From contig NZ_LFQR01000082.1 in the NCBI RefSeq assembly GCF_001182895.1, positions 1-63,162 of the forward strand: a stretch of 63,162 nt of DNA, read 5' to 3'. Positions 48,428 through 58,818 of this stretch are shown here, piece after piece (within the stretch, counting starts at the first letter, position 1; the number at the start of each line of letters is the position of its first letter). Position numbers and translations under genes: made by a program. The notes beneath the pieces are model-generated. The model made no database searches. It saw nothing but the letters and a program-made list of their open reading frames with translations, and was not told the DNA's origin. The DNA comes from Frateuria defendens (GTDB lineage Bacteria > Pseudomonadota > Gammaproteobacteria > Xanthomonadales > Rhodanobacteraceae).

Positions 48428-49909
48428 TCAAGCGCGGTGCAGCGCGGCCAGCACATCCGGCGACGATACCGGCTTGCGGCCGCGCCGGGGAGGCGACAGT
48501 TCGTGCGCCGGCGCGGCGGCGCCCAGCGGCGGCTGGCCGAACCAGGCCAGCGTCTCGGCCAGCGCGGCCACCTCGCCCAGGATCAGCAGCGCCGGCGAGC
48601 GCACCATGTGCGCCGCGGCGCGCTCGGGCAGCTCGGCCAGCGTGCCGGTCACCACGCGCTGACCGGCGCGCGAGCCGTTCTCCACCAGGGCGAACGGCGT
48701 CGAAGGCGCGCGGCCATGGGCCAGCAGGCGCGCGCGCAAGCCGTCCAGCTCGCCCACACCCATGTACACGGCCAGGGTCTGGCGCTCCTGCGCCAGCGCG
48801 GGCCAGTCCAGCGTGTCGAGCGAATCGCGGCAGTGCGCGGTGACCAGGCGCACCGACTGCGCGTGGTCGCGGTGGGTCAGCGGCACGCCGGCATAGGCCG
48901 CGCAAGCGAGCGCGGCAGTGATGCCGGGCACCACCTCGTAGGGAATGCCGTGGGCGCGCAGGTATTCCAGCTCCTCGCCGCCGCGCCCGAACACGAACGG
49001 GTCGCCGCCCTTGAGCCGCACCACGCGCTTGCCGGCGCGCGCGTGTTCGAGCAGCAGCGCGTGGATGCGCTCCTGCGTGGTGTGATGGTTGCCGGCCTGC
49101 TTGCCGACCTCGATGCGCTCGGCGTCGCGCCGCGCCAGCGCCAGCACCGCCTCGCTCACCAGCCGGTCGTGCAGGATCACGTCCGCCTCGTTCAGGGCGC
49201 GCAGCGCGCGCAGGGTGAGCAGGCCCGGATCGCCGGGGCCGGCGCCGACCAGCACCACGGAACCCCGCCGCTCGCCCGGCTCCTGCGCCAGCGCGCGCTC
49301 CGCCGCGGCCTGCGCGGCCTGCGGCTGGTTCTGGCGCAGCAACTCGGCGACCTCGCCGGCAAACAGCCGCTCGTAGAAGCGCCGCCGCGCCGCCGGCGCC
49401 GGCAGCTGCGCGCGGATGCGCCCGCGCAGGCGCGCCGCGAGCGCGGCCAGCGCGCCGAGCGAGTGATCGAGCAGCGCCTCCAGCCGCTCGCGCAGCAGCC
49501 GTGCCAGCATTGGCGCCTCGCCGCCGCTGGAGATGGCGATGGTGAGCGGCGCGCGGTCGATCACCGCCGGCACGTGGAAGCTGGAGAGCGCCGCGTCGTC
49601 CACCACGTTGACGAAGATCCGCCGCAGCCCGGCCAGCGAGGCCACCAGGCGGTTGGTCTCGGCATCGTCGGTGGCGGCCACCACCAGCCATACCCGATCC
49701 AGCCAGCTCTCGCGGAAGGCTTCGTCGGCATGCGCGATACGCCGTTCGGCCACCCAGCGCCGCAGCGTGGCGGTGAGTTCGGGCGCGTTCACCGTCACCT
49801 GCGCCCCCGCCTCGAGCAGCGCGGCCACCTTGCGCTCGGCCACGGCACCGCCGCCGACCACCAGGACGGCGCGTCGGGAGAGGTCGGCGAACAACGGATA
49901 GAGCTTCAT
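48428..49909 (-). CDS. cysG: siroheme synthase (uroporphyrinogen methyltransferase / precorrin-2 dehydrogenase / ferrochelatase)
   Basis: CysG makes siroheme, the prosthetic group of sulfite reductase, from uroporphyrinogen III. The 493-residue protein has an N-terminal Rossmann dehydrogenase/ferrochelatase part ([20 protein letters not shown], ~14-33, catalytic Asp in [13 protein letters not shown]) and a SUMT domain from ~residue 217 ([20 protein letters not shown], then [18 protein letters not shown]). Length is near E. coli CysG (457) plus a short tail. ATG 49909 begins [18 protein letters not shown], a typical start. It is divergent from cysB and immediately upstream of cysK; the intergenic repeats may control both directions. 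Confidence 0.95.
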
Positions 49910-49966
49910 CGGGTACTGCGCGGCATGAGCGGGGACATCTTCACGCTAGACCGCACGCCGCGGCGC

Positions 49967-49981
49967 CACAAATGATTTGTG
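49967..49981. promoter_or_regulatory. inverted repeat CACAAAT-G-ATTTGTG in the cysG-cysB gap
   Basis: This perfect 7-bp inverted repeat around one base lies 58 bases before cysG and 41 bases before the cysB -35 element. Its place between divergent cys genes makes it a candidate regulator site, perhaps for CysB itself; its binding protein is unknown. Confidence 0.45.
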
Positions 49982-50021
49982 CCTGCGGCCATATGCCTCT
50001 GGGTTATGTCGTCCGTTGGAT

Positions 50022-50055
50022 TTGACAAAAAAGTGTTACGGACGTATAGACGTCT
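50022..50055 (+). promoter_or_regulatory. cysB promoter overlapping two met-box-like 8-mers
   Basis: TTGACA (50022-50027) and TATAGA (50045-50050) are 17 bases apart, a near-consensus promoter. GGACGTAT (50040-50047) and AGACGTCT (50048-50055) are adjacent 8-mers; the second equals the E. coli MetJ met box exactly and the pair covers the -10. The same pattern precedes cysJ. A repressor binding here would block cysB. Confidence 0.65.
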
Positions 50056-50093
50056 ACTTATGTTTTCGCCGATCCGGACACGTCAGAGCCGTC

Positions 50094-50118
50094 GCCTCGA
50101 GGCTTATGCCCTCGAGGC
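50094..50118 (+). other. hairpin in the cysB leader
   Basis: GCCTCGAGG and CCTCGAGGC pair perfectly over 9 bp with a 7-base loop, ~37 bases after the predicted transcription start and 87 bases before the cysB ATG. It lacks a T run. A role in mRNA stability or leader regulation is possible. Confidence 0.4.
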
Positions 50119-50204
50119 ACTGGCGTGCCAGATCCGCAAGCGATGTACCCGGGCCGGTTGCCGCGTTTCCATCGCCACCCACGACCGTCCACGAGAACCT
50201 CGCC

Positions 50205-51197
50205 ATGACCCTGACCCAATTGCGATACCTGGTCGCCATCGCCGACGCCGGCCTCAACATCACGCTCGCCGCCGAGCGTGTCCACGCCACCCAGCCCGGA
50301 CTCAGCAAGCAGCTGCGGCAGCTTGAGGACGAGCTCGGTTTCCTGCTGTTCGTCCGCAAGGGCAAGAGCCTCGACGCGGTGACCCACGCCGGCCAGCACG
50401 TGCTGGCGCGCGCCCGCACCGTGCTCGGCGAGGTCGGCAACATCCGCTCGCTGGCGGCCAACCTGCGCAACGAAGCGCGCGGCGAGCTGCGCATCGCCAC
50501 TACCCACACCCAGGCGCGCTTCGCGCTGCCCACCGCCATCGCGGCGCTCAATACGCTGTACCCGGAAGTGAGCGTGCACCTGCAGCCGGCGCGCGACGCG
50601 GAGATCCTGGCCCAGCTGGAAGCCGGCCGCGCCGACCTCGCCGTGATCAGCACCGTCGGCGCCCCGCCCAGCGGCGGCATCGCCCTGCCCGCCTACCGCT
50701 GGCAGCGCCTGATCGTGGCGCCGCAGGGCCACCCGCTCGCCGCGCTCAAGCGCCCGCTCACGCTGGACGACCTGGCCGCGCATCCGCTGGTCAGCTACGA
50801 CTCCTCGCGCCGGCCCGAATCCTCGTTGCGGCGCGCCTTCGAGGCCGTGGGCCTGCACCCGCAGATCGCCATGACCGCCGGCGACGCCGACCTCATCAAG
50901 ACCTACGTGCGCGCCGGCCTCGGCGTCGGCGTGCTGGCCGAGATGGCCCTGCAGGCGGAAGACACCGACCTGCGCCGGCTGCCGGCCGAGCACCTGCTGC
51001 CGGCCTGCACCACCTGGCTGGTGCTGCGGCGGGACGCGGTGCTGCGCGAATACGTGCTGGAGTTCATCGCCCGCTTCGCCCCGCATCTGGACCGCCGCGA
51101 CGTGGCCCGCGCCCTGGCCGACGCCGAGCCGCGCGACTGGCCGGCGGTGCCGCACTGGCGCGAGCGCTCGGGCCCGACGCTGTCGGTTGCGGCCTAA
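50205..51197 (+). CDS. cysB: CysB-like LysR regulator of sulfur assimilation
   Basis: CysB activates sulfate-assimilation genes in response to O-acetylserine or N-acetylserine. The 330-residue protein begins TLTQLRYLVAIADAGLNITL, then AAERVHATQPGLSKQLRQLE, the winged HTH in CysB/Cbl style. The effector domain opens ELRIATTHTQARFALPTAIA, with the TTHTQARY-like motif that marks CysB. Length is near E. coli CysB (324). Divergent from cysG and followed by a terminator, it sits between the cysGK and cysJIH-sat units it should control. The start ATG 50205 is family-matched; the predicted leader is ~150 bases. Confidence 0.95.
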   Translation: MTLTQLRYLVAIADAGLNITLAAERVHATQPGLSKQLRQLEDELGFLLFVRKGKSLDAVTHAGQHVLARARTVLGEVGNIRSLAANLRNEARGELRIATTHTQARFALPTAIAALNTLYPEVSVHLQPARDAEILAQLEAGRADLAVISTVGAPPSGGIALPAYRWQRLIVAPQGHPLAALKRPLTLDDLAAHPLVSYDSSRRPESSLRRAFEAVGLHPQIAMTAGDADLIKTYVRAGLGVGVLAEMALQAEDTDLRRLPAEHLLPACTTWLVLRRDAVLREYVLEFIARFAPHLDRRDVARALADAEPRDWPAVPHWRERSGPTLSVAA

Positions 51198-51243
51198 AGT
51201 TCGCCGACGGCGCACCAGCCGCCGCCACGAAGCCCGCCCGCAA

Positions 51244-51268
51244 AAAGGCCCGGCCATGCCGGGCCTTT
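51244..51268. terminator. shared terminator between cysB and the sat/cysC gene
   Basis: AAAGGCCCGGC and GCCGGGCCTTT form a perfect 11-bp stem with loop CAT, flanked by A and T runs on the two sides. It can terminate both convergent units. Confidence 0.85.
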
Positions 51269-51353
51269 CCTTTGCGCTCCGTGCCGACGACATCGCCAGC
51301 GTGTACCGGCGGCGCACCCCATGCCCTGCGGCACGGCATGACGCCGCCCGCCC

Positions 51354-53099
51354 TCACGCCCCGATCAGGCCGCGGTTGCGCAGCAGGGTGAGGATGTGCC
51401 GCGCCAGCGTCACCGGCTCGGCGCTGCTGGCGTCCACGCGCAGCTCCGGCTGCTCGGGCACCTCGTAGGGGTCGCTGATGCCGGTGAAGCCGGCGATCTT
51501 GCCCGCCCGCGCCTGCGCGTAGAGGCCCTTGCGGTCACGCGCCTCGCACACTTCCAGCGGCGTCTCCACGTGGACCTCCACGAAGTCGCCGTGCGCCTCC
51601 ACCAGCGCGCGCGCCTCGGCGCGGGCGTCGGCATAGGGCGCGATCGGCGCGCACACCGCGATGCCGCCGTGGCGCACGATCTCGCTGGCCACGTAGCCGA
51701 TGCGGGTGACGTTGGCGGCGCGGTCCTCGCGCGAGAAGCCCAGGCCGCGCGAGAGGTGCTTGCGCACCTCGTCGCCGTCCAGCACCGTCACCGGCCGGCT
51801 GCCCTGCTCCAGCAGCTGGGCGATCACCGCCTGCGCCAGGGTGGACTTGCCGGCGCCGGAAAACCCGGTGAAGAACAGCGCGAAGCCGCGCTGCGCCTGC
51901 GCCGGGTGCCGCTCGCGCAGGATCCGCACCACCTCCGGGAAGGTGAACCACTCCGGGATCGCCTCGCCCGCGTGCAGGCGGCGGCGCAGCTCGGTGCCGG
52001 AGATGTCGCGCACCTCGTCCTGCGGCGTCACTTCGGTGGAAGGCAGGTAGGCGTCGCGGTTGGCCGCGTAGACCATCGCCGGGAACGGCACGATGGCGAT
52101 GCCCAGCTCGTGCTGGTGGCGCTCCAGCAGCGCCTGCGCCTCGAACGGGTCGTAGAACGGCTTGCCGCTGGCGTCCTTGCCGGGGCCGGCGTGGTCGCGG
52201 CCCACGATGAAGTGGCTGGCGCCGTAGTTCTTGCGGATGATCGCGTGCCACAGCGCCTCGCGCGGGCCGCCCATGCGCATCGCCAGCGGCAGCAGCGAGA
52301 GCTTCACGCTGTCCTCGGGGTAATGCGGCAGCAGCGCCTGGTAGCAGCGCACGCGGGTGTAGTGGTCCACGTCGCCCGGCTTGGTGCGGCCCACCACCGG
52401 CTGCAGCAGCAGCCGGGCACCGGCCAGCTCGGCAGCGCGCAGGGTCAGCTCGCGGTGCGCGCGGTGCATCGGGTTGCGGGTCTGGAAGGCCACGATGCGG
52501 TCCCAGCCGTTGGCCGCGAACCACTCGCGCAGGCCGCGCGGGGTGTCGCGCAGTTCGCCGAAGTCATAGTGCGCCGGCGGCTGCACGCCGCGCACGCGCC
52601 CGCCCACGTAGGCCGGGCCGGTGCGGTCGAGCAGCTCGGCCACGCCCGGGTGCAGGCGGTCGGTGGTGCCGAACACCTGCTGCGCCTCGTGCAGGCGGTC
52701 GGGCCAGTAGATGTCGCTCACCTCCAGCACCGCCAGCGGCACGCCCTGGCTGTCGCGCAGGGCGATCTCGCTGCCGGCCTCGAGCCGGGCGGCGAAGGCC
52801 TCGCTCACGTCCAGGGTGATCGGCATCGGCCACAGCGTGCCGTCGGCCAGACGCGACTCGGCCACCACGCGGTCGTAGTCGCGCCGGGTCAGGAAGCCCT
52901 CCAGCGGCGAGAAGGCGCCGTTGAGCAGCAGCTCCAGGTCGCACAGCTGGCGGGCGTTGAGGTCGAGGCCGGGCAGCTCGGCGCTGCGGCGCTTGAGCGC
53001 CTCGGCCTCGGCCTTCGGCAGGTAGAGTTCCTTCAGTACGCCGCCGTGCGGCGCGACGAGCGGGTCGCCGATTACCTCGGCAAGGGCAGTACGGGTCAT
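51354..53099 (-). CDS. bifunctional ATP sulfurylase/adenylylsulfate kinase
   Basis: This fusion protein makes APS from sulfate and ATP and then PAPS. The 581-residue protein has an N-terminal homodimer-type ATP sulfurylase (Sat): LYLPKAEAEALKRRSAELPG, FQTRNPMHRAH (about 205-215, nucleotide site), then GRDHAGPGKDASG. A C-terminal APS kinase domain begins around residue 405 with the P-loop GFSGAGKST (412-420), DGDEVRKHLSRGLGFSREDR and FVEVHVETPLEVCEARDRKG. Sat-type differs from the CysDN heterodimer used by E. coli, and none of cysD/cysN is in the window. It follows cysH by 66 bases and is the last gene of the cysJIH unit. ATG 53099 was chosen for the family start. Confidence 0.93.
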   Translation of the reverse strand: MTRTALAEVIGDPLVAPHGGVLKELYLPKAEAEALKRRSAELPGLDLNARQLCDLELLLNGAFSPLEGFLTRRDYDRVVAESRLADGTLWPMPITLDVSEAFAARLEAGSEIALRDSQGVPLAVLEVSDIYWPDRLHEAQQVFGTTDRLHPGVAELLDRTGPAYVGGRVRGVQPPAHYDFGELRDTPRGLREWFAANGWDRIVAFQTRNPMHRAHRELTLRAAELAGARLLLQPVVGRTKPGDVDHYTRVRCYQALLPHYPEDSVKLSLLPLAMRMGGPREALWHAIIRKNYGASHFIVGRDHAGPGKDASGKPFYDPFEAQALLERHQHELGIAIVPFPAMVYAANRDAYLPSTEVTPQDEVRDISGTELRRRLHAGEAIPEWFTFPEVVRILRERHPAQAQRGFALFFTGFSGAGKSTLAQAVIAQLLEQGSRPVTVLDGDEVRKHLSRGLGFSREDRAANVTRIGYVASEIVRHGGIAVCAPIAPYADARAEARALVEAHGDFVEVHVETPLEVCEARDRKGLYAQARAGKIAGFTGISDPYEVPEQPELRVDASSAEPVTLARHILTLLRNRGLIGA

Positions 53100-53165
53100 G
53101 GCTGTTTTCTTTTGTTGGTCGGGGGTAGCGCCGCACATGGCGGCAACGATACGGCTAAAGCGGAC

Positions 53166-53888
53166 TCAAGCGAACTCGTGCAGGCCACACTCGCGTTTCA
53201 GGCCGAAGAAACGGGTGTCTTCGAGGTCCATGCCCGGTTCCCAGCGCCGGGTGGTGTGGACGTCGCCGATGGAGAGGTAGCCCTGCTCCCACAGCGGGTG
53301 GTACGGCAGGCCGTGGCGCTTGAGGTAGAGCCCCACGTCGCGGTCGCTCCAGTCGGCCAGCGGGTGCCACTTCCAGCGGCCCTCGCGCCATTCGGCGAAG
53401 TCGATGGCGGCGCGGGTCCTGGCCTGCCCTCGGCGCAGGCCGGCGAACCAGCCGGCGGCGCCCAGCTCCTCCAGCGCACGGCGCATCGGCTCCACCTTGC
53501 GCAGGCGGTTGTAGCGCTCGATGCCGGCCACGCCCTGCTCCCACAGCCGGCCGTAGCGCGCCTCCATGCGGGCCGGGCTGAGCGGCGACTGGTACACCTT
53601 GAGGTTGAGCGAGAGCCGCTCGGCCAGCTCGTCGATGAAACGGTAGGTTTCCGGGAACAGGTAGCCGGTGTCGATCAGCACCACCGGCAGGTCCGGCTGC
53701 AGCTGGGTCAGCAGGTGCAGCGACACCGCCGCCTGGGCGCCGAAGCTGGAGGACAGCACCTGCGGCCCCGGCAGCTGTTCCAGCGCCCAGGCCGCCCGCG
53801 CCTCGGCCGGGCGGCCGGCCAGCCAGCGGTTGAGTTCGGCGCGCGCGGCCGTGTCGTGGCGCGCGCTTTCCAGCAGGGCCCGGCTCAT
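53166..53888 (-). CDS. cysH: phosphoadenosine phosphosulfate (PAPS) reductase
   Basis: CysH reduces PAPS to sulfite with thioredoxin or glutaredoxin. The 240-residue protein has the PP-loop-type site [20 protein letters not shown], then [35 protein letters not shown] and [12 protein letters not shown]. The only cysteine, in KRECGLHEF near the C-terminus (about 234), is the catalytic one, so this is the PAPS-using type without the Fe-S cluster cysteines of APS reductases, consistent with the APS kinase domain encoded downstream. The ATG overlaps the cysI stop (ATGA); a longer in-frame extension is only a shadow of cysI. Confidence 0.95.
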
Positions 53889-55579
53889 GGCGTCACCTCC
53901 AGGGGGATGGCCCGCGACGGCGCCGGCTCGAGCACGCCCGCGCGCAGCAGGAAATCGCCGAAGCGCTCCTCTTCGTCGCGCTCGACCGCGTAGCGCGCGA
54001 ACAGCGGCTCCAGCGCGGCGAGGATGGCGTCCTCGTCCACGTTCTCGCGGTAGACCCGGTTGAGCCGCTGGCCGGTGAAGTCGGCGCCCAGGCGCAGGTC
54101 GTAGCGGCCCGGGCCGCGCCCGACCAGGGCGATCTCGCCCAGGTACGGCCGCGAGCAGCCGTTGGGGCAGCCGGACAGGCGCAGCAGGATCGGCGCCTCG
54201 CGCAGGCCGTGCCGTGCCAGCGCGGCTTCGAGCCGCGGCAGCAGCGCCGGCAGGTAGCGCTCGCTCTCGGCCATCGCCAGGCCGCAGGTGGGCAGCGCCA
54301 CGCAGGCCACCGCGTGGCGGCGGATGCCGCTGTAGCGCTCGCCGCCGTCCAGGCCGTGCTCGCGCACGAGGGCGTCGATGCCCGCGCGGTCCGGCTCCGC
54401 CACGTTGGCCACGATCACGTTCTGGTTGCAGGTGAGGCGGAAGTCGCCCCGGTGCACCTGCGCCAGCTCGCGCAGGCCGGTGAGCCAGCGCCGCGCGCCC
54501 ACGTCGGCCAGGCGCCCGGCCTCGATGTGCAGGGTGAGGTGCCAGCGACCGTCCTGCCCCTGCGTCCAGCCGTAGCGGTCGCCGTTGTGGTCGAAACGGA
54601 AGGCGCGCGCCGGCTCCAGCGCAAAGCCCAGGCGCGCCTCCAGCTCGGCCTTGAAGGCGTCGAGGCCGCGGTGGTCCAGCGTGTACTTGAGCCGCGCGTG
54701 CTTGCGCTCGCTGCGGTTGCCCCAGTCGCGCTGCACCGCCACCACGCCCTCGGCCACCGCGATCAGCTGGTCGGGCGTGGCGAAGCCGATCACGCTGCCC
54801 AGCCGCGGATAGGTAGTGGGATCGCCGTGCGCGGCGCCCATGCCGCCGCCGATCGCCACGTTGAAGCCGAGCAGCTCGCCCTGCTCGATCACCGCGATCA
54901 GCCCCAGGTCCTGGGCGAACACGTCGATGTCGTTGAGCGGCGGGATCGCCAGCCCGATCTTGAACTTGCGCGGCAGGTAGGTGGCGCCGTACAGCGGCTC
55001 CTCCTCCGCCTCGCCGGCGAGCTTCTCGCCGTCCAGCCAGATCTCGTGGTAGGCGCGCGTCCGCGGCGCCAGATGCTCGGACAGGCGCGCCGCCCAGGCG
55101 TAGGCGTGCGCGTGCGCGGCGGATTCCACCGGGTTGGGCGTGCTCACCACCGTGCGCACCACGTCGCCGCAGGCGCCGATGGTGGTGGCGAGCGCGTGGT
55201 GGATCGCCGCGATGGTGGGCTTGAGCCGGCGCTTGATCACGCCGTGCCATTGGAAAGTCTGCCGCGTGGTGATGCGCAGGCTGCCGTTGGCGTACTCGCG
55301 CGCGATGCGGTCGAAGGCCAGCCACTGCGCCGGCGTCACCACGCCGCCCGGCAGGCGCGCGCGCAGCATGAAGGAGAACGCGGGCTCCAGCTTCTGCTTG
55401 CGGCGCTCCTCGCGCAGGTCGCGGTCGTCCTGCTGGTAGCTGCCGTGGAACTTGAGCAGCTTGTTGTCGTCCTCGCTGATCGCGCCGGTGACCGGGTCGG
55501 CCAGCCCCTGCTCGAGGGTGCCGCGCAGGTAGCGGCTCGCGGCCTTGATGCGTTCGAAATCGGAAAGGGGGGCGGTCAT
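53885..55579 (-). CDS. cysI: sulfite reductase hemoprotein beta subunit
   Basis: CysI reduces sulfite to sulfide by six electrons on a siroheme coupled to a 4Fe-4S cluster, receiving electrons from CysJ. The 564-residue protein has paired ferredoxin-nitrite/sulfite reductase domains. Cluster/siroheme cysteines are visible as [18 protein letters not shown] and [16 protein letters not shown] (about 430-480). [20 protein letters not shown] and [18 protein letters not shown] are typical N-terminal features. Length is near E. coli CysI (570). cysG in the next unit supplies the siroheme. The stop overlaps cysH by ATGA and the start lies 8 bases after the cysJ stop, so cysJIH is one transcript. Confidence 0.96.
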
Positions 55580-55587
55580 GGCGTTCT

Positions 55588-57384
55588 TCAGTAGACGTCG
55601 CGGGCGTAGCGGCCCTGTTGCAGCAGTTCGGCGAGCCAGGCGGAGGCGTCCTCGGACGAGAGAGCGCCGTGGGTGGCGATCACCTCGATCAGCGCGGCAT
55701 GGACGTCCCTGGCCATGTGCTTGGCGTCGCCGCAGACGTAGAGGTGGGCGCCCTCGCGCAGCCAGGCGTAGAGCTCACGCCCCTGCTCGCGGATGCGCTG
55801 CTGCACATAGGTTTTTTGTAGCCCTTCTTCCCGCGAGAAGGCGAGATCGAGGCGATGCAGCGAGCCGTCCTTGAGCGCCTGCTGCCACTCCACCTGGTAG
55901 AGGAAATCCTGCGAGAAACGGCGGTTGCCGAAGAACAGCCAGTTGCGCCCGCGCGCGCCCTGCTCCCGGCGATGCTGCACGAAGGCGCGGAACGGCGCCA
56001 CGCCGGTGCCGGGGCCGATCATGATGACGTCGCGGCTGCTGTCCTGCGGCAGGCGGAAGCGCTCGTTGGCCTCGATGAAGACCGGCACGCCAGCGTCCTC
56101 CTCGCTGGCCGCGAGGAAGGCGGAAGCCGCGCCCCAGCGCTGCTCGCCCTGGTTCCGGTAGTCCACCACCGCCACCGTGAGGTGCACCTCCTCGCCCACC
56201 GCCGCCTGGCTGGAGGCGATCGAGTACAGCCGCGGCGTCAGCGGGCGCAGCGCGGCCACCAGCGCGGTGGCGTCCCACGCGGCCGGGTGGCGGCGCAGCA
56301 GGTCGATCGGCTGCTCGCGCTCCAGCACGGCCGCCAGCTCGACGGCGTGTTCCGGGCGCAGCAGGCCGCGCAGCGCCTCGTCGCCGGCGGCCTCGGCGTG
56401 GGCGGCCAGCCAGCCGCGGCCAAGCCGGGTCAGCTCGCGCTCGCGGCCCAGCCACTGCGCCAGCGGCAGGCTGCGGCCGGCGTGGGTCACCGGCTGCTCG
56501 CCGTCCAGTTTCAGGGCGTCGAGCCACTGTGCCACCAGCGCCGGCGGATTGACCGGCCACACGCCCACCGCATCGCCCGGCTCGTAGCGCAGCCCGGCGC
56601 CTTCCAGCGAAAGTTCGAGATGGCGGATGTCGCGCTCGTCGTCGCGGGCCACGATGCGCTGGTTGGCCAGCACCGCCGCCGGGTAGGGGCGGTCGCGGTC
56701 ATGCGCCGCCACGCTCGGCACCGCGTGCAGGGCCGGCACCCGCGCCGCCGGCGCCTCGGCCTTCAGCGCCTCGCGCGCCAGGGCCAGCGCCTGCGCCGCC
56801 CACGGCGCCGCCACCGTCTCCACGTCCACGTCGGCCTCGCCCAGCGGCGCCAGCCGCGTGCCGCCGAGCTCGGCCAGGCGCGCGTCCAGCTGGCGGCCGA
56901 TGGCGCAGAACTGCGGGTAGCTGGAATCGCCCAGGCCCAGCACGGCGAATTTGAGCGCGGGCAGCTTCGGCGCGCGCTTGCCGGTGATGAACTCCACCAG
57001 CCCGCGCGCGTCGTCCGGCGGCTCGCCCTCGCCCTGGGTGCTGATCACCATCACCAGGTGGCGTTCCTGCGCCAGCTCGCGCTGCGGGTAGGCGTCGGCG
57101 CGCAGCAGGCGCACTGGCAGCCCGGCCGCCTCGAGCTCCTTCACGAGCCGCTCGGCCACGCGGCGGGCGTTGCCGGTCTGGCTGCCGTACACCACCGTCA
57201 GCGGCGAGGACGCCTGGGACGCTGCGGCCGGCGCCGGCGCCCGGCCTTCCGCCCTGGCGGCAACCCAGGCGGCCACCCAGTAGAGTTCGGCCGGCCCGAG
57301 GCCGTCGACCAGCTTCCCGAGCAAGGCGATCTTCCCGGCATCGAGGGCGGGGGCGGCAAGCTCGGGCACGGCGACAGCGTTCAC
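55588..57384 (-). CDS. cysJ: sulfite reductase flavoprotein alpha subunit
   Basis: CysJ moves electrons from NADPH through FAD and FMN to CysI. The 598-residue protein has a flavodoxin domain ([20 protein letters not shown], ~64-83), a connecting FAD-binding domain ([20 protein letters not shown]) and an NADPH-binding domain ([20 protein letters not shown], then [20 protein letters not shown], ending ARDVY, with Tyr last as in the family). Length matches E. coli CysJ (599). The start is GTG 57384, preceded by AAGGAA eight bases upstream; a much longer in-frame reading frame is not protein-like. Met-box-like repeats lie directly upstream. Confidence 0.95.
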
Positions 57385-57396
57385 AGCAATTTCCTT

Positions 57397-57420
57397 GGAC
57401 GTCCATACGTCTGGCCGTCC
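57397..57420 (-). promoter_or_regulatory. three tandem met-box-like 8-mers before cysJ
   Basis: On the minus strand GGACGGCC, AGACGTAT and GGACGTCC follow each other without gaps, ending just before the cysJ ribosome binding site. They match AGACGTCT at 5, 7 and 6 of 8 positions. The last two share 13 of 14 core bases with the cysB site. Confidence 0.6.
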
Positions 57421-57421
57421 A

Positions 57422-57450
57422 AAATTAGTCACCCCTATACATATAAACAA
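57422..57450 (-). promoter_or_regulatory. possible cysJIH-sat promoter
   Basis: On the minus strand TTGTTT (57450-57445) and TAATTT (57427-57422) are 17 bases apart, in an unusually AT-rich stretch. Transcription would start inside the met-box-like repeats. The elements are weak, as expected if an activator such as CysB is needed. Confidence 0.4.
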
Positions 57451-57624
57451 AGGACATCTCGGCATGTGCTTATGCCGATGCCTTATTTCCCCCCGTCCCT
57501 GCCGGCGCCTAGGCTTCGTCCCAGGCTTCATCCGTCCATCGAACCCGCCGCCGGCCCCATCCCCTAACGGCGAGCACCGTCCGGGCCTGCTGGCCCGGCC
57601 GATGCGTGCGGCTACAATCGGCGG

Positions 57625-58818
57625 ATGAAGCCAACCATCCCGCCCCCCATCGAAGTCCGCGGCTCCGCCAGGCAGCCGCTGGGCATGCCCCCGGCGCAGT
57701 TCCTGCGCGACTACTGGCAGAAGCGGCCGCTGCTGGTCCGCCACGCCTTCCCCGGCTTCCAGCCGCCGATCGCGCCGGAGGACCTGGCCGGGCTCGCCTG
57801 CGAGGAAGGCGCGCTGTCGCGCCTGATCGTCCACGACGCCGCCCGCGAGCGCTGGAAGGTGAAGACGGGCCCGCTCGCCGAGGCCGACTTCGCCCGCACC
57901 GGCGACGCCAACTGGACCCTGCTGGTGCAGGACGTGGACAAGTGGGACGCCGACGTGGCGGCGCTGCTGGAGCCCTTCGCCTTCCTGCCCAGCTGGCGCG
58001 TGGACGACATCATGATCTCCTACGCCGAGCCCGGCGGCGGCGTGGGCGCCCACGTGGACCAATACGACGTGTTCCTGATCCAGGGCCAGGGCCTGCGCCA
58101 CTGGGCGATCAGCACCGACCCGGACGCGCCCCGGGACGTCCGCCCCGACGTGGAACTCAAGCAGCTGGCCCATTTCGAGCCCACCCACGAATGGCTGCTC
58201 GAACCGGGCGACCTGCTCTACCTGCCGCCCGGCGTGCCGCACGACGGCGTGGCCTTCGGCGGCCCCTGCATGACCTTCTCGGTGGGCATGCGCGCGCCCT
58301 CGCAGGCCGAGCTCACCGGCGACCTGGCCGACTACCTCGCCGAGCGCCTGCCCGACGAGCTGCGCTACGCCGACCCCGACCTCGCCCCGGCCAAGGCCCC
58401 CGGCGAGATCGACCGCGCCGCCCTCGCCCGCGTGAAGGCCGCGCTGCCGTTCGCCGCCGCGCTGGACGAGGACACCCTGCGCGACTGGTTCGGCCGCTTC
58501 ATCACCCGCTACCGCCTGGCCCAGCAGCCGGCGGCGCCGGCCCGCCCGCCCGGCGAGGCCGCCCTGCGCAAGCAGCTCGACGCCGGCGCCGAGCTGCTGC
58601 GCCATCCGTGGACGCGGCTGGCCTGGAGCCGCGGCCGCCGCGGCGCCACCCTGTTCGCCAACGGCGAAGCCTGGCCCGCGCCGCCGGCGCTGGCCGCCCG
58701 GCTGTGCGCCCAGCGCGCGCTGCGGCTGGAAGCCAGCCCGGGCGAAGCGGAGCTGGCCCTGCTGCACGCCCTGGTCGAGGGCGGCCACCTGGTGCTACGC
58801 AAACCCCGGCGGCGATGA
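57625..58818 (+). CDS. roxA: ribosomal protein uL16 3-hydroxylase (JmjC/cupin, RoxA/YcfD-like)
   Basis: RoxA is a 2-oxoglutarate/Fe(II) oxygenase that hydroxylates an arginine of ribosomal protein uL16 in E. coli. The 397-residue protein has the cupin core MISYAEPGGGVGAHVDQYDV, where H-x-D gives two iron ligands, and DLLYLPPGVPHDGVAFGG with the third His. The C-terminal helical region (LRDWFGRFITRYRLAQQPAA and after) fits the dimerisation/winged-helix part. Length is near E. coli YcfD (373). A TACAAT at 57613-57618 would put the transcription start about at the ATG, possibly a leaderless mRNA. ATGA overlap with the GNAT gene. Confidence 0.92.
   Translation: MKPTIPPPIEVRGSARQPLGMPPAQFLRDYWQKRPLLVRHAFPGFQPPIAPEDLAGLACEEGALSRLIVHDAARERWKVKTGPLAEADFARTGDANWTLLVQDVDKWDADVAALLEPFAFLPSWRVDDIMISYAEPGGGVGAHVDQYDVFLIQGQGLRHWAISTDPDAPRDVRPDVELKQLAHFEPTHEWLLEPGDLLYLPPGVPHDGVAFGGPCMTFSVGMRAPSQAELTGDLADYLAERLPDELRYADPDLAPAKAPGEIDRAALARVKAALPFAAALDEDTLRDWFGRFITRYRLAQQPAAPARPPGEAALRKQLDAGAELLRHPWTRLAWSRGRRGATLFANGEAWPAPPALAARLCAQRALRLEASPGEAELALLHALVEGGHLVLRKPRRR

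Follow-up and report, generated by a model that had tools for sequence, protein, structure and literature searches.

Which protein reads the tandem 8-bp repeats that precede cysB and cysJ in Frateuria defendens, and what could it do there? The original prediction, made on a contig of 63,162 nucleotides (NZ_LFQR01000082.1; the window, i.e., the whole stretch of DNA analyzed), named a MetJ-like or other methionine-pathway repressor that acts on cysB and on the cysJIH-sat operon. We examined the repeats, searched for MetJ and followed the motif through related genomes.

Tandem repeats at cysB and cysJ

The window contains, in order, cysK, cysG and the divergent cysB, and a minus-strand row of cysJ, cysI, cysH and sat/apsK. 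The cysB gene (50205–51197, plus strand) encodes a CysB-family LysR regulator that scored 460.3 bits against NF009325, just below the cut-off of 482. Gene calls and family scans identified the others on the minus strand, i.e., cysG for siroheme synthase (48428–49909), cysJ, with a GTG start, for the flavoprotein subunit of sulfite reductase (55588–57384), cysI for its hemoprotein subunit (53885–55579), cysH for phosphoadenylyl-sulfate reductase (53166–53888) and sat/apsK for a bifunctional sulfate adenylyltransferase/adenylylsulfate kinase (51354–53099). The latter is presumed to be the last gene of a cysJIH-sat operon.

Positions and letters of both repeats had been given correctly. Two adjacent met boxes, GGACGTAT-AGACGTCT (50040–50055, plus strand; sequence GGACGTATAGACGTCT), lie in the divergent cysG-cysB intergenic region, 149 bp from cysB and 130 bp from cysG, and are kept at orthologous cysB loci. 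Three adjacent boxes, GGACGGCC-AGACGTAT-GGACGTCC (57397–57420, minus strand; sequence GGACGGCCAGACGTATGGACGTCC), are found 12 bp upstream of the cysJ start and are kept at family cysJ loci. As claimed, they stand directly 5' of the ribosome-binding site, with AAGGAAA and the GTG of cysJ after them, and the core shared by both sites agrees at 13 of 14 positions. The repeats match the met-box consensus AGACGTCT in the available part of PMC4239095.

A two-box score of at least 14.5 was reached at three starts in the 63-kb window, every one at the cysB or cysJ site, compared with a mean of 0.15 starts in 20 shuffled windows, where the top score did not occur. We rejected a chance origin of the motif from shuffled windows, reversed-pattern counts and other windows of the same loci. 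A repetitive or mobile element was rejected as well; by eye, the flanks of the sites in this genome have no longer sequence in common.

The cysB repeat had also been said to overlap a −10 element. In a candidate cysB promoter, TTGACA-17-TATAGA (50022–50050, plus strand), the putative −10 TATAGA spans the junction of the two boxes, but a consensus promoter scan called no promoter there, because the scan requires a final T. TTGAC recurs at about the same spacing in 13 of 25 cysB loci in our own reading. An overlap of the box pair with the −10 element is plausible, and cysG is a possible second target of this pair. Upstream of cysJ, the consensus scan found no promoter.

A MetJ with a basic tail in Rhodanobacteraceae

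The prediction had left in doubt whether MetJ exists in this bacterial group. An ortholog search found one MetJ in the genome, on a contig outside the window (C274). It passed the cut-offs of PF01340 (E 4.8e-35; 119.2 bits, cut-off 25) and of NCBIfam NF003622 (125.2 bits, cut-off 110) and matched the solved E. coli MetJ in the PDB with E 1.8e-30. PF01340 was above cut-off in 72 of 250 genomes of the order and in 52 of 52 sampled Rhodanobacteraceae, which removes the doubt; in the other family genomes, MetJ is defined by PF01340 only. Among the matches listed for a single family MetJ were Dyella, Luteibacter, Rhodanobacter, Frateuria, Dokdonella, Tahibacter, Oleiagrimonas and Mizugakiibacter, and nine loci from enteric, Vibrio and Pseudoalteromonas species stood at the end of the 80 MetJ loci listed.

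In the available parts of PMC4239095 and PMC3228920, the MetJ regulon ranges over Enterobacteriales, Pasteurellales, Vibrionales, Aeromonadales with Psychromonadaceae, Alteromonadales and Shewanellaceae. Leyn et al. (2014) detected MetJ in six other gammaproteobacterial groups (62 genomes) and in none of four Xanthomonadales, and proposed that it arose in the ancestor of those groups and was not transferred to others (PMC4239095, accessible sections). The presence of MetJ outside its published range is new. Literature searches found no paper linking MetJ to Rhodanobacteraceae, nor to Rhodanobacter, Dyella or Luteibacter among the matches listed. They also found no report of MetJ acting on cysB or cysJIH-sat; matches for MetJ with sulfate assimilation and cysJ concern E. 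coli, as far as their excerpts go. The words cysB, cysJ and sulfate are missing from the main texts of PMC4239095 and PMC3228920, and with histone H1 terms MetJ was in none of the matches listed.

The metJ gene (L009:1210-1764, minus strand) encodes a MetJ whose reading frame continues into a histone H1-like tail rich in Lys, Ala and Pro. The protein has 184 residues, with the Lys/Arg-rich tail replacing the normal C-terminus from about residue 79, and does not have the standard form of about 105 residues with a normal C-terminal part. Judged from its sequence, it is a non-standard variant of the MetJ family. All 52 sampled family proteins carry such a tail, of 48–190 residues and 30–44% Lys+Arg. 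Outside the family, 19 of 19 MetJ proteins examined end within 9–26 residues of the same point (from a sample of 20, in which G038, with one internal TGA, was left out). The tail shares low-complexity Lys/Ala/Pro repeats with histone H1-like bacterial proteins (HC2; NF038053), but unlike these it is fused to a sequence-specific repressor. It scored below cut-off for both HC2 (26.5 against 40) and NF038053 (28.7 against 80), and we rejected membership of the HC2 nucleoproteins on the curated cut-off.

K23 and T25, which we take to be DNA contacts of MetJ, are invariant in all 52 family proteins. The residues E39 and R42 were crucial SAM partners of E. coli MetJ in a simulation study (available part of PMC2775130); the F. 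defendens protein has L and H at these positions and thus lacks both SAM contacts. Positions 39/42 are LH, LY or LE in 19 of the 52 family proteins, EH in one and ER in the other 32; all 19 proteins examined outside the family have ER. When 16 family members were placed on a two-gene tree, proteins with altered residues were spread over its branches, and the tree pointed to no definite number of origins. With L and H in place of E39 and R42, MetJ of this species may be altered in SAM sensing. AlphaFold on this MetJ, with a 9-row alignment, gave a pLDDT of 51, too low to be informative.

Conservation of the repeats and candidate regulators

Absence of the motif at orthologous cysB and cysJ genes, a point that would weigh against the prediction, is excluded. 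We searched 33 family genomes and obtained CysJ in 23 and CysB in 24 at E≤1e-60; the window locus was then added. Four genomes taken as Luteibacter (G074, G100, G159, G194) had neither CysJ nor CysB at this threshold. A box pair within 300 bp upstream of the gene was significant (p≤0.05 against 200 shuffles per locus) at 22 of 24 cysJ and 24 of 25 cysB loci, the cysB loci L190 (p 0.05) and L200 (p 0.04) being weak; two cysJ loci and one cysB locus had no significant pair. Scores of at least 14 occurred in 19 of 23 cysJ and 21 of 24 cysB regions; of the 507 remaining windows at these loci, two scored as high.

Outside the family but within the order, 23 of 33 genomes searched had CysJ, 11 of them without MetJ and 12 with a tail-less short MetJ. 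The cysJ upstream site was present in nine of the 12 genomes with tail-less MetJ, missing in the other three, and found in none of the 11 MetJ-less genomes. When MetJ genomes were pooled, the ratio was 31/36 against 0/11 (Fisher p 2.5e-7, calculated on related and hence non-independent genomes). Two genomes outside the family, G113 and G212, have metJ immediately 5' of cysJ, where the site is present (L222:1498-3655 and L073:3-1743). E. coli K-12 has no site upstream of cysJ (p 0.74) or cysB (p 0.16); the model MetJ regulon therefore has no branch at these two genes.

Sites were also found at methionine genes. In F. defendens they lie upstream of metX-metB (281 bp) and metJ (158 bp), each preceded by at least two adjacent met boxes, the arrangement by which we recognized an operator. 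A further site lies 203 bp upstream of a small gene that is followed by a TonB-dependent receptor gene. In relatives, sites precede metX (G090, G184, G198; metX assigned by eye), aspartokinase (G031 and G115 by family scan; G184, G198 and G206 by eye), a cysteine synthase-like gene (G100, by eye) and, at 403 bp, metE (G115, family scan). The metJ upstream pair at about −155 is common, and degenerate in Luteibacter and some Dyella.

Two further gene neighborhoods were observed. On L043:1-1915, a perfect pair lies 85 bp upstream of a phosphate-selective-type porin gene, which is followed by a gene for a sulfate-binding protein. In three genera, the met-box site separates metX from a divergently oriented gene for a 2OG-Fe dioxygenase (L013:2168-2893, identified by PF10014 scan; L229 and L231, by eye).

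We propose that the repeats are very probably operators of the genome's own MetJ, which would repress cysB and cysJIH-sat as well as metXB and metJ, and aspartokinase in relatives. The genome's own MetJ, the kept pairs, the missing cysJ site in 11 of 11 MetJ-less genomes and the sites at methionine genes support the predicted MetJ-type repressor; binding, repression and SAM as the signal we infer. MetJ dimers would occupy adjacent 8-bp boxes. At cysB, MetJ would cover the −10 region and exclude polymerase, because the pair overlaps the putative −10, and might also act on the divergent cysG. At cysJ, MetJ bound just 5' of the ribosome-binding site would block initiation or early elongation of cysJIH-sat; boxes that abut this site fit a repressor rather than an activator. 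The same repressor would act on metXB, on metJ itself and, in relatives, on aspartokinase.

The cysB and cysJ genes are classical targets of CysB, and the conserved motif could alternatively be a CysB binding site through which CysB regulates itself and cysJ. We consider this very unlikely. Although the site is kept at both cysB and cysJ, it also precedes metX, metJ and aspartokinase, and G184, in which neither CysB nor CysJ was found at E≤1e-60, keeps it at metX and aspartokinase (by eye), which contradicts the objection that CysB might explain all binding. Moreover, the cysJ site is missing wherever MetJ is missing among the 11 genomes compared (sorted by MetJ and CysJ only), the spot abutting the ribosome-binding site would be odd for an activator, and the motif matches the met box AGACGTCT (PMC4239095, available part).

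It is likewise highly improbable that the boxes are bound by some other regulator, i.e., a different ribbon-helix-helix protein or one resembling SamR/SahR. The loss of E39 and R42 from MetJ would agree with such a protein, and SamR is reported for Xanthomonadales in the accessible sections of PMC4239095, but the SamR site is described there as a 24-bp palindrome, ATC-10nt-GAT. Furthermore, all 31 genomes with a perfect pair have MetJ, metJ adjoins cysJ in G113 and G212, and every family protein (52 of 52) retains K23 and T25. That the repeats are RNA hairpins (a leader structure or terminator) and no protein sites is extremely unlikely: GGACGT-ATAG-ACGTCT is able to pair and was flagged as terminator-like, but the letters are kept beyond mere pairing, no Rfam family matches the region 49800–57700, the motif co-occurs with MetJ and the cysB copy spans the putative −10.

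Dispersed copies and known regulatory systems

The motif is frequent in F. defendens. With at most one mismatch, GACGTATRGACGTC had 49 strand matches in the whole genome, compared with one for the reversed pattern. At the same tolerance, RGAYGTWTRGACGTCY had 51 strand matches here, 5–27 in ten family relatives and 0, 1, 1 and 0 in four MetJ-less genomes (reversed control 0–3), and GGACGTCYRGACGTCC, which also catches some promoter-type pairs, occurred at 43 places here, 3–22 in ten family relatives and none in four MetJ-less genomes (reversed control 0–3). The perfect pair GGACGTCTGGACGTCC was found in 31 of 250 genomes, i.e., 30 of 52 in the family and one other, all with MetJ, and in 0 of 178 MetJ-less genomes. 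F. defendens has 19 copies, where about 0.003 are expected from a Markov model of the genome sequence; family relatives have 0–6. The further objection, that the motif might be no more frequent than at random, is excluded for the motif itself.

Many copies lie inside ORFs or between convergent genes, and we rejected the idea that all are promoter operators. Eleven of the 19 perfect pairs are inside ORFs, and five of the other eight lie between convergent genes (L019, L021, L025, L039, L040), 10–271 bp from the 3' ends. A first box containing GTCT was present in 22 sites, 14 of them in ORFs, and eight of the 21 others were in ORFs, compared with 84% coding in the window. Placement was by site midpoint for L001-L043, with the two window sites left out and L003/L004 perhaps being one place at two contig ends; the metJ site was counted as 'other' because the gene caller's metJ is too short. 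Many perfect pairs sit where repression of methionine genes has no obvious sense, which counts against the MetJ operator explanation, as do the replaced SAM contacts and the absence of sites at cysJ and cysB of E. coli K-12.

In frame, the exact pair reads GRLDV, as in 5 of the 11 in-ORF copies here and in 17 of 22 among 39 copies from nine relatives. A purely coding cause of the in-ORF copies is partly true in view of GRLDV, but was rejected as a full account, as the comparison of edd genes (by eye) speaks for a constraint at the DNA level. In this genome and five relatives, edd encodes GRLDV as GGA CGT CTG GAC GTC, where GGA makes up 2% of Gly codons and CGT 9% of Arg codons in family edd genes. 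These edd copies (L028:2000-2015, L335, L340, L342, L343, L344) lie about 140 bp before the next gene. In the other family relatives (15 compared), three have GRLDV/GRLEV in other codons and seven a different peptide; among MetJ-less edd loci, 0 of 15 have GRLDV at that place. The codon pattern hints at, but does not prove, a constraint on the DNA itself of some in-gene pairs. In a UbiH-like comparison, the peptide itself differs between families, and a carboxylase-like copy in common with G198 is probably due to peptide constraint.

In this family, MetJ could serve a dual purpose, with its lysine-rich tail making it nucleoid-like and the protein occupying dozens of dispersed pairs, many of them within genes and at least one maintained as DNA in spite of codon preference, in addition to control of methionine and sulfate-reduction genes, and without SAM or with another signal where E39/R42 are lost. 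We regard this as rather unlikely.

The system shares with the published MetJ regulon a MetJ domain with K23/T25, tandem 8-bp boxes of the consensus AGACGTCT and the targets metX/metB, metJ, aspartokinase and metE. It differs in its proposed targets cysB and cysJIH-sat, in the Lys/Arg-rich tail, in the loss of E39/R42 in some species and in its lineage, where MetJ was found in 0 of 4 genomes (PMC4239095, available part). The layout works like that of McbR-CysR in Corynebacterium glutamicum, where a methionine/sulfur repressor acts on the sulfate-reduction activator as well as on the reduction operon. In C. glutamicum, McbR, which responds to SAH, is paired with the ROK-type CysR, in contrast to MetJ and CysB here (accessible sections of PMC2580772); by membership the regulator is MetJ.

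Action of MetJ on cysB and cysJIH-sat would mean that methionine sufficiency lowers both the activator CysB and its target operon, and the repeats hence suggest that methionine status controls sulfate reduction. New are a proposed sulfate-reduction branch of MetJ, absent from E. coli K-12 at cysB and cysJ, the tail carried by every one of the 52 family proteins, and the replacement of E39 and R42 together in 19 of these, F. defendens included. This raises the questions of what role a histone-like tail has on a textbook repressor and how MetJ functions after its co-repressor pocket has changed.
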